From contig JAJYHT010000009.1 of the NCBI GenBank assembly GCA_021784595.1, forward strand, positions 62,001-126,000: a DNA stretch of 64,000 bases. Reading direction: 5' to 3'. This document shows, one piece after another, positions 11,662-15,084 of the stretch (position 1 is its first letter; each line of letters starts with the position of its first letter). Under the pieces are notes generated by a model. It searched no databases and was not told the origin of the DNA. It saw only the letters and a list, made by a program, of their open reading frames with translations. Position numbers and translations under genes: made by a program. This DNA comes from Bacillota bacterium. GTDB lineage: Bacteria > Bacillota > Sulfobacillia > Sulfobacillales > Sulfobacillaceae.

Positions 11662-12609
11662 GTGCCCCACTACCTATATTTGACAGATCATAAATCGACT
11701 GAAGAGTCGAGCCATATGCCTCAGTCGGCTGACGAAATATGGGCAGATATCGACGAGAGCGAAACGCAACACATCGGCGCGATAGTCCGCCATTTTTTTG
11801 CTGCCCACCCGGCCACTGTTCAACGCATTCTGGACAGTGCCAATCGCCAACCCAGCCTCCTCGTGCAAGATGATGCGGTGGTATTTGTGTTGTCAGATTA
11901 CGTAGGCGATTTGGATCACCTATCCAATCTACATTTGGGGATATTTTTGGGGCAACATTTCTTGGTCACCGCCCATGTCGGTGGCGCCAGCAACGTGGTG
12001 AGCCAGGCCTGGTCATTCATCGCCAAAAATCGTATGCTGGACGAGGGTGTCGATTTTGCCCTTTACGAAGTGCTTTACCATCATGTCCATCGCTTGGCAC
12101 AACTCAATGCAGTGGTGGTGGCGCGCTTTGAAGCCTTGCATGCCAAACTTCTCGAGCATCCTTATCGCAATTTAGCCAATGACATCGTGAATCTGCGCAA
12201 GTCGGCAATGCGGCTGCGCAAGATGATTCATCCAGAACTCGAGATATTTGCGCTTTTAAAGAGCCCCGATGTGCCCTACATTGACAAAAACAACCGTCCT
12301 TATTTCGATGATATCGCGGCGCGGGCCCGCGAATTGTCCGAAGATGTCGACAGTATCCGCGATGGCTTGTCCGGCATGGTAGAAGCCTATACCTCGATGC
12401 AGTCCAATGAGATCAACAAAGTGATGAAATTTTTGACCATCTTGTCGGTGTTGGCGCTTCCCGCTACCACCATTGCGTCGATTTACGGCATGAACTTTTA
12501 CATTCCAGAAATCCATTGGCGCTATGGATACTTCTATTCTCTCATTGTGATGTCATTAGTTACGGTTCTGCTCTTGCTCCATATGCGAAAGCGTGATTGG
12601 TTTCGTTAA
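11662..12609 (+). CDS. CorA-like divalent cation transporter
   Basis: The 315-residue protein has a large cytoplasmic N-terminal domain with long helices, two C-terminal membrane helices and the GMN selectivity motif (IASIYGMNFYIPE) between them. It ends in a short basic tail (MRKRDWFR), all typical of CorA/2-TM-GxN channels for Mg2+, Co2+ or Zn2+. It should act as a pentamer in the cytoplasmic membrane. A GTG start follows AAGGAGACGGTC. The gene stands alone, divergent from the YIEGIA operon, and the GGDEF protein begins about 20 nt downstream. The actual metal cannot be told from sequence. Confidence 0.9.
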   Translation: MPHYLYLTDHKSTEESSHMPQSADEIWADIDESETQHIGAIVRHFFAAHPATVQRILDSANRQPSLLVQDDAVVFVLSDYVGDLDHLSNLHLGIFLGQHFLVTAHVGGASNVVSQAWSFIAKNRMLDEGVDFALYEVLYHHVHRLAQLNAVVVARFEALHAKLLEHPYRNLANDIVNLRKSAMRLRKMIHPELEIFALLKSPDVPYIDKNNRPYFDDIAARARELSEDVDSIRDGLSGMVEAYTSMQSNEINKVMKFLTILSVLALPATTIASIYGMNFYIPEIHWRYGYFYSLIVMSLVTVLLLLHMRKRDWFR

Positions 12610-12630: not shown

Positions 12631-15084
12631 TTGCCATTGTGTCAAATTATACTTAAAAATGTGAAAATACTAAGAAAGAACGGATCGGTTAAGCGTAAGC
12701 ATGGCGTACAATGGACCCTATTTGGATGGGTCTGGATTGTGATGCTCTCCGGGTGGATTGTGGCGGCGGGTTCCAATTTTTGGTTTTCCGCGCGCCACGA
12801 ACTGGCGCTAGGGCAGGGCGTCATAGTGGAACGTATAAATGATCGGCTGCATTTTCTGGGGGACCAACTGGCCACTCTTCCCCAGCAGAAGACCTTTGCT
12901 TCTGTAACCAGACCCTGGGAAAACATACAACTCATGACAATAGGAACAATACCGGTAAAATTTGCGCTTCTTGCCTTGTCTTCGAAAAACTTGCTGGCAG
13001 CCAGTCAAAGATCGTTGCCAGATGTTTGGTCGGCTATTGACTTTAACGTGCCGCAAGGAAGAACTCTGGTCGTTATGCCCTCGGGATCGACTCAATGGTT
13101 AGTGGCGTGGCAAAAGATTTCTCAAAGGCGGCAGGTTCTTTTGGCAATTGTCAATAACGGGCAAGTGACACGAAGAATTTGGGGTGTGGTAGCGCAAGAA
13201 AATGGAGCCATTGCCGGGGTGTTGCTGTTATTGGCTTTAGGGGGCGCTTTTGTGGTGGCGGAATTGTCACGCCGTGCGTTTCGCCCGTTAATGGGAATAA
13301 ACAACCCAAGAGCCGCGGATGCCCTGGCCGAGTCCACGACCATTAAAGAAGTGGGACAGCTAGCGCGTTTATGGGGAGGAATACTGCAGCAGCGACACGA
13401 AGAGCAGGACAAAATGGCATGGCTGGCCGAGCACGATCCGCTGACTGGGATCTTTAATCGCAGAGGATTCTTAGACCACGCTCAACATATGGAAGCGACG
13501 AGTCAGGGACGTCGTTTGATTGTGGCTGTCGCTGACATTGACCATTTTAAGCAAATTAATGACACCTACGGCCACGCCATCGGAGATCAATTATTGGATG
13601 TGGTGAGTCGGCGCTTGGCCGTGACGGGGATGCAAGGGTCCATCGTGGGACGTTTAGGAGGTGACGAATTTGCCTTAATATGCCCCCAAACCCCTTCCGA
13701 CATTGTAGAGTATCTGACCCAGGTGTGCCAACAGGTCTCAAAGCCGATCGGACTTTCAGATGTCCAGATTCATCCTACACTGAGCGTGGGAGCTGCGGTG
13801 TGGCCTGATGATGGTGCTACGCTTGCAGGTGTTTTGCACAATGCGGATTTAGCCTTATATGCTTCCAAGGCCAAAGGCCGTAATGCCACTACGTTGTTTA
13901 CGCCCGATCTTTTAGTCGCTGCCCAGATGCGGGTGCAATTGCGCCATCGTATGGTCCAGGCCATGGCTCAGAGAGACTTGGTGCTGTTTTATCAGCCAAT
14001 AGTGGATTTGAAGTCGGGCCATATGATAGGTGCCGAGGCCTTGTTGCGCTGGCAGGAGGGTAATGTGTTGCACTTGCCCGCGGAGTTTCTCCCGTATTTG
14101 GATGATGAGGCCATATTAACCCAACTGGGAGACTATGTGCTGGAAGCAGCAATGCACCAGGCCAGCGACTGGCATCGTGAAGGGTATTCGCTCCGTATAG
14201 GCATTAATGTATTGCCACAATATTTTCTCGGCCAAACACTGGTTGTCAAAGCAGCCAAACTGTTAAATCAGTATGGATTGCCGCGGGGTAGTGTGGAATT
14301 GGAAGTGACGGCCAGTGCGGGATTGGCCGACATCGACGCGGCTAACCAGCGTATTCGGCAGTTGCAAAAACTAGGGCTGTTAGTCGCTATCGATGAATTT
14401 GGCACAGGATATGCCTCTTTATCATATCTTCTGAAGTTAGCTGCCAATCATGTCAAACTAGACCGTAGCTTTGTTCGGGACTTGCGGCCAGGCACCGAAA
14501 CCTGGATTATGGTCGGGGGAGTGGTGGCTCTTTGCCGTGCTATGAGACAAAATGTGGTGGTGCAAGGCATTGAATATCAGATGACAAGTCTAGCGCTTCA
14601 TAACATGGGAGCCCAAGAAGCTCAAGGCGAATGGTTTGCGCCTGCGATGCCGGCGGACCGATTGCCTGTTTGGATGGCCAGGTGGCAAAAGGCCGCGTGG
14701 AAGCCTCCCTCAAGTGGCAATCCTGCGCCCAATCTCTTGATTCTGCTGCAATATCATGTGATGCAATGGGCTGAACAGGTAGTGCTTTTTGCAAAATCGC
14801 CTGGCACTGCGGACGAGCGGACGCGATTGTTGAACCATGTACATTGCCCGTGCGGCGATTGGCTAGAGCAATTGGAAAGTACGCAATTGCATGATGCAGC
14901 GGCTTGGGCGGCATTTCGCCGAGTGCACGCCCGCATGCACTACTTAGCCACGTTGTTATTGGAACATTCTCATCCACCCGTTTCCCGGTATCAGGCCTTT
15001 GACTATGGGGTGCAAGCATTTTTGGCTCGAGTTCAAGAAATGTCGCGCGAAGTGCTGCAGCAGCCCCAACTGACCGACATTTGA
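12631..15084 (+). CDS. Membrane GGDEF-EAL protein with C-terminal zinc-binding (CZB) domain
   Basis: The 817-residue protein has a signal-anchor helix near residues 32-50, a sensor region outside the membrane, a second helix near 190-215, GGDEF near 260-420, EAL near 440-665 and a C-terminal CZB module near 700-775. GRLGGDEFAL is intact, so diguanylate cyclase activity is plausible; no RxxD inhibitory site precedes it. The EAL domain keeps EALLRW, the Asn of INVLPQ and VKLDRSF. However, the catalytic AEGVE Glu is Gln645 (VQGIE) and the DDFG pair reads DE (Glu589), which suggests a dead phosphodiesterase. CZB ligands H709, C739, H766 and H770 have the spacing of E. coli DgcZ. The start is uncertain: a TTG at 12631 or a GTG at 12661, neither with a strong ribosome-binding site. 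Confidence 0.85.
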   Translation: MPLCQIILKNVKILRKNGSVKRKHGVQWTLFGWVWIVMLSGWIVAAGSNFWFSARHELALGQGVIVERINDRLHFLGDQLATLPQQKTFASVTRPWENIQLMTIGTIPVKFALLALSSKNLLAASQRSLPDVWSAIDFNVPQGRTLVVMPSGSTQWLVAWQKISQRRQVLLAIVNNGQVTRRIWGVVAQENGAIAGVLLLLALGGAFVVAELSRRAFRPLMGINNPRAADALAESTTIKEVGQLARLWGGILQQRHEEQDKMAWLAEHDPLTGIFNRRGFLDHAQHMEATSQGRRLIVAVADIDHFKQINDTYGHAIGDQLLDVVSRRLAVTGMQGSIVGRLGGDEFALICPQTPSDIVEYLTQVCQQVSKPIGLSDVQIHPTLSVGAAVWPDDGATLAGVLHNADLALYASKAKGRNATTLFTPDLLVAAQMRVQLRHRMVQAMAQRDLVLFYQPIVDLKSGHMIGAEALLRWQEGNVLHLPAEFLPYLDDEAILTQLGDYVLEAAMHQASDWHREGYSLRIGINVLPQYFLGQTLVVKAAKLLNQYGLPRGSVELEVTASAGLADIDAANQRIRQLQKLGLLVAIDEFGTGYASLSYLLKLAANHVKLDRSFVRDLRPGTETWIMVGGVVALCRAMRQNVVVQGIEYQMTSLALHNMGAQEAQGEWFAPAMPADRLPVWMARWQKAAWKPPSSGNPAPNLLILLQYHVMQWAEQVVLFAKSPGTADERTRLLNHVHCPCGDWLEQLESTQLHDAAAWAAFRRVHARMHYLATLLLEHSHPPVSRYQAFDYGVQAFLARVQEMSREVLQQPQLTDI

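Follow-up and report, generated by a model that had tools for sequence, protein, structure and literature searches.

The gene under study occupies positions 12631..15084 on the forward strand of the window, by which we mean the whole stretch of 64,000 nucleotides that was analysed, and its host is an acid-loving bacterium of the Sulfobacillus type. Counted from a TTG codon at 12631, it codes for a protein of 817 residues with relatives at 36-62% identity; an in-frame GTG at 12661 is the other candidate start codon, so that residue numbers may shift by 10. The first-pass annotation had described a membrane protein where a GGDEF-EAL pair is followed by a C-terminal tail of the CZB type, and this is the layout we find, with the open reading frame, two transmembrane segments and both domains in place. 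The first transmembrane helix is placed by the sequence at about residues 29-48 (12715..12774; AlphaFold helix 30-82) and the second at about residues 189-211 (13195..13263; AlphaFold helix 176-221). Between them, residues 49-182 (12775..13176) form an extracytoplasmic sensor region, modelled as a long helix followed by five strands (pLDDT mostly 50-79), which would resemble a single-Cache domain by layout only. A Pfam scan of these residues gave no match, and a search with the full-length model returned GGDEF-EAL cores only, nothing for the extracytoplasmic region. Then follow the GGDEF domain (residues 266-418, 13426..13884; 135 bits) and the EAL domain (residues 442-671, 13954..14643; 172 bits), both far above their Pfam cut-offs, and finally a CZB-derived domain of five helices (residues 701-809, 14731..15057), for which Pfam, further profiles, AlphaFold and shuffling provide the evidence.

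The family is represented by 34 genomes, and just five of them have an EAL-CZB end of this kind: three belong to the window's own genus and two to one sister genus. The relatives come from Sulfobacillus benefaciens AMDSBA4, one Sulfobacillus sp. metagenome-assembled genome (MAG) and two Bacillota MAGs; they share 54-62% identity with the window protein within the genus and 36-38% in the sister genus. Comparisons of the EAL domain and of the tail therefore involve five proteins of two genera, while the GGDEF residues can be read in four of the five. In one genome of the same genus (L022) the gene lies between a CorA gene and an open reading frame of 645 residues, and this same frame is also found downstream in the window, after two small genes. 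It is again downstream in a further congener (L025), where the contig ends inside the EAL-CZB gene. The sister-genus copies have a different genomic location. The CorA gene that precedes ours (11662-12609) was considered as an operon-linked metal clue and then rejected, as CorA is present in 31 of the 34 family genomes and the CZB protein in five: CorA is there whether or not the CZB protein occurs, and no CorA gene adjoins the CZB gene in either sister-genus copy. There are thus no metal genes specifically tied to this gene. A promoter scan around the start was uninformative, with two weak matches against 0.7 expected.

A probable cyclase next to a degenerate phosphodiesterase domain

The residues of the GGDEF active site (DxDHFK, ND, GD, GGDEF and YxSKxxGR) are kept in all four proteins that cover the region, and the RxxD I-site that may precede the GGDEF motif is absent from the same four alignments, as had been proposed from the window sequence. 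This I-site is common and is not required for cyclase activity. The domain probably makes c-di-GMP, although intact motifs alone are no proof of cyclase activity.

The state of the EAL domain is quite different. At position 645, which aligns with the general bases RocR E352 and TBD1265 E703 and lies 57 residues after D588, the three proteins of the own genus have Gln and the two of the sister genus Glu. At position 589, the second Asp of DDFG, Glu is found in the window genome only, the two congeners having Asp and the sister genus Asn (DNFG). Both substitutions had been listed beforehand, and alignment of the metal ligands bears them out; Glu589 is private to this genome, however, and the earlier verdict of an apparently dead domain had not included the defect that all the proteins share. 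This is at position 561, the second Glu of E-x-T-E-S, replaced by Ala in the own genus and by Gly in the sister genus, hence altered in five proteins out of five. We take this Glu to be the equivalent of RocR E268, presumably the anchor of catalytic loop 6. The three features expected of an active EAL phosphodiesterase (the general-base Glu, DDFG and the Glu of E-x-T-E) thus appear in the window protein as Q645, E589 and A561. By comparison, 11 other EAL domains in the same table, three from the same genome and the rest drawn from the class, from an Aeromonas plasmid and from MorA (four further EAL domains of the own genome being left out), retain every residue lost here, so that within this set the defects belong to this lineage only. 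The own genome also has an EAL match that is broken in two (C52:2615-3276, reverse strand), the neighbouring parts lying in different frames, possibly through a frameshift or an assembly error.

Can such a domain still cleave c-di-GMP, if only slowly, which would make the protein bifunctional? Most of the metal ligands (E469, N526, E558 and D588) remain, as does K609, but the Glu of E-x-T-E is lost in all five proteins, together with either the general base or the second Asp, and the E703A change in TBD1265, equivalent to position 645, abolishes phosphodiesterase activity (PMC12943098). We give slow hydrolysis hardly any credence: with a defect conserved across five genomes and two genera, hydrolysis of c-di-GMP appears very unlikely. 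Binding is another matter. The alignments show that YQP, ExLxR and Q665 are kept along with the ligands just named, and we infer from these residues that the domain likely binds c-di-GMP without hydrolysing it.

A membrane-bound GGDEF-EAL protein with a degenerate EAL domain might also be nothing other than a receptor of the LapD kind, devoid of any enzyme activity, and the full-length model does resemble the cores of MorA, PA0575 and LapD. Against this, the GGDEF domain is intact in the four proteins that cover it, and the NCBIfam LapD profile gives a score of 96 bits where LapD-type proteins are defined at 1020. We regard a receptor without enzyme activity as very improbable, and retain that of a cyclase flanked by a non-hydrolysing EAL domain.

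A tail derived from CZB, with a ligand set of its own

The spacing H709-x29-C739-x26-H766-x3-H770 is, as first noticed, exactly that of the zinc-binding CZB domain of DgcZ. Shuffling the 122 residues of the tail reproduced it in 29 cases out of 200,000, which rules out chance as the origin of the motif. Pfam CZB (PF13682) matches residues 736-773 with 17.2 bits in the full protein and 21.1 bits when the tail is scanned alone, and CZB is the match in the four relatives too, at 17.7-21.1 bits; all five proteins lie below the gathering cut-off of 29.4 bits, and the match covers profile positions 27-60 only, leaving the helix of the first His outside. We also made a profile of our own out of 21 CZB domains that come from other Bacillota; with it, the tail scored 17.3 bits and its relatives 13.7-16.5 bits, against a maximum of 11.6 bits in 20,000 shuffles. 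Profile-profile comparison with hhalign gave a probability of 82%, with C739, H766 and H770 in register and the helix of the first His again not covered. The signature of helix alpha3, C-x-[hydrophobic]-G-x-W together with H-x3-H, is recognizable as CPCGDW and HARMH, where the third position is Cys, not Leu or Phe. The CZB assignment made at first pass is consequently kept in part: CZB is matched in all five proteins and the profile score is above chance, but it stays below the cut-off, and we therefore describe the tail as CZB-derived rather than as a full member of the family.

The predicted fold is compatible with that of DgcZ. AlphaFold, fed with five rows from this lineage only, predicted a five-helix bundle (pLDDT 83, pTM 0.77) that superimposes on DgcZ (4h54) with Z 10.0 and 2.7 A over 103 residues at 16% identity, a score that many unrelated four-helix bundles equal or exceed, so that the fold search is not specific. 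A sequence search of the domain against solved structures returned no CZB match, only matches with E above 0.2. It is the sequence, not the fold, that decides for a CZB origin.

What the tail may sense depends on its ligands. C739, C741, G742, W744, H766 and H770 are invariant in the five proteins, even where overall identity of the tail is down to 39-41%. The two Cys lie in the Cys739-Pro-Cys741 segment (14845..14853), Cys739 being the counterpart of the zinc Cys in aligned CZB domains and Cys741 a lineage-specific invariant; the two His, His766-x3-His770 (14926..14940), are candidate zinc ligands. His709 (14755..14757), the candidate first ligand, is present here and in the congeners and is Gln in both proteins of the sister genus, where the Cys-to-His spacing is x24 against x26 in the window protein. 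The helix reads His-x3-Trp, with Trp at +4, and not the canonical His-x2-Trp (Trp at +3) found in the other sampled CZB domains wherever they cover it; these have Leu or Phe at the third motif position (C-x-[LF]-G), where our lineage has C-x-C-G. Variation is also met elsewhere in the sample: one CZB sequence (L108) is without the zinc Cys itself, and another from the class-wide search (L089) has its first zinc His replaced by Gln (MDQEMW), the rest of the motif being canonical.

The most direct reading would be a zinc-controlled cyclase of the DgcZ type, H709, C739, H766 and H770 making up a site of three His and one Cys through which zinc inhibits the GGDEF domain. The exact spacing speaks for it, and DgcZ itself is inhibited by zinc (PMC8262984). 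This control is weakened because His709 becomes Gln in the sister genus and is not placed by the profiles, because the helix has the His-x3-Trp register, and because an extra Cys741 is invariant: judged by its residues, the zinc site does not simply repeat the one in DgcZ. We would call this reading possible, though rather unlikely as it stands. C739 and C741 may instead be oxidised or bridged, with a metal as resting-state ligand or with none, placing the cyclase under the control of oxidants in a habitat rich in ferric iron. Invariance of C741 down to 36% identity, at a place where the other sampled CZB domains have Leu or Phe, fits such a redox switch, and there is a precedent in the control of DgcZ through oxidation of its CZB Cys by HOCl (PMC8262984); yet CxC disulphides are strained and a single metal could take both Cys, so that a switch of this sort seems quite unlikely. 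At the other extreme, the tail might be a relic that has lost its metal and merely aids dimerisation. One canonical ligand does vary, and the Pfam score is low, but six residues stay invariant at such tail identity, which would not be required for structure alone, and we hold this to be improbable.

A proposed membrane sensor among known systems

Putting these elements together, we give an about even chance to a membrane sensor that produces c-di-GMP, with a non-hydrolysing EAL domain probably used for ligand binding and a CZB-derived module responding to metal or redox state. Domains, residue states and conservation were computed; from them we infer that the protein acts as a cyclase, that its EAL domain binds c-di-GMP, that the tail senses metal or redox state, and which way control would run. 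The protein would be a membrane-bound diguanylate cyclase, its GGDEF-EAL core being flanked by the extracytoplasmic sensor region and by the bundle in the cytoplasm at its C-terminal end. The GGDEF domain would make c-di-GMP; the EAL domain would probably still bind it and may supply product sensing in place of the missing I-site. The bundle would bind zinc or another soft metal, or change redox state, via C739, H766 and H770 with either H709 or C741, and its occupancy would alter the packing of the homodimer, thereby tuning the cyclase; in the DgcZ precedent, zinc inhibits (PMC8262984). Of the zinc-controlled cyclase with a binding EAL domain that had been suggested at the outset, divergent CZB homology, an intact GGDEF domain and an EAL domain very unlikely to hydrolyse c-di-GMP survive, but DgcZ-type zinc control does not come through as well, and zinc control as such is a hypothesis. 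A bolder proposal, which we consider unlikely, is that the added Cys has turned the site of three His and one Cys into either a thiol switch or a metal site of two Cys and two His, coupled to the cyclase via a dead, product-binding EAL domain that replaces the I-site, in acid-dwelling Bacillota of metal- and iron-rich places.

The extra Cys741 could change what the tail senses, and a natural CZB domain whose ligand set shifts between sister genera, with His replaced by Gln and a Cys added, could be used to probe the choice between zinc and oxidant. Likewise, product sensing by an EAL domain could be tested on this protein, where the EAL is degenerate and its neighbour is an intact cyclase that has no I-site.

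The arrangement of domains had been thought rare, and it is not. Acidithiobacillus has Protoglobin-GGDEF-EAL-CZB and PAS-GGDEF-EAL-CZB proteins, with CZB in 62 of 387 GGDEF-EAL proteins (PMC6416229). The survey of 10,140 sequences by Perkins et al. 2021 (PMC8262984) counts among its classes both EAL-CZBs and CZB cyclases that contain an EAL; an Aeromonas plasmid and another family of the same class add further cases. In that other family, L065:2940-5834 and L109:750-3581 (both reverse strand) are of the GAF-GAF-GGDEF-EAL-CZB type, with a degenerate GGDEF (GGAEF) and an intact EAL, the mirror image of ours, and in their CZB domains the position of the first ligand is not clearly occupied by His. 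L111:940-4068 (forward) and L112:1075-4215 (reverse) are of the GAF-PAS-GGDEF-EAL-CZB type, GGDEF and EAL being both intact; their CZB-like tail reads C-CGLG, with an extra Cys directly before the zinc Cys. Elsewhere in the Sulfobacillus family (G003, G013, G021, G011, G019, G025 and G022), PF13682 matches lie in open frames, most of them some 400 residues long, probably soluble chemoreceptors, none of which was found in the window's own genome by the class-wide CZB search.

LapD and FimX also combine a GGDEF domain with a non-hydrolysing EAL domain; in them the GGDEF domain is degenerate as well as the EAL, whereas it is intact in the window protein. E. coli DgcZ (YdeH) shares the CZB domain and the intact GGDEF, and the window protein alone has the identical ligand spacing, but DgcZ is soluble, with its CZB at the N-terminus and no EAL, whereas ours is membrane-bound, with an EAL domain and a C-terminal CZB. 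The Aeromonas caviae plasmid protein WP_244073144.1 (L113; HAMP-PAS-GGDEF-EAL-CZB) has its CZB likewise at the C-terminus but, unlike ours, above the Pfam cut-off (44 bits) and next to an intact EAL. The Acidithiobacillus proteins are alike in bearing a C-terminal CZB after GGDEF-EAL in extreme acidophiles; compared by domain layout, leaving aside the state of their EAL and their CZB motif, they differ in using protoglobin or PAS as input, where the window protein, from Bacillota, has a two-TM extracytoplasmic region, a degenerate EAL and CxCG. The classes of Perkins et al. 2021 have the same combination of domains and are restricted to Proteobacteria, from Alpha- to Deltaproteobacteria (PMC8262984), so that GGDEF-EAL-CZB is now placed in Bacillota, where that survey had none. 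The layout itself is already known in other acidophiles; what distinguishes the present protein is its Bacillota setting, its dead EAL domain and its CxC variant.
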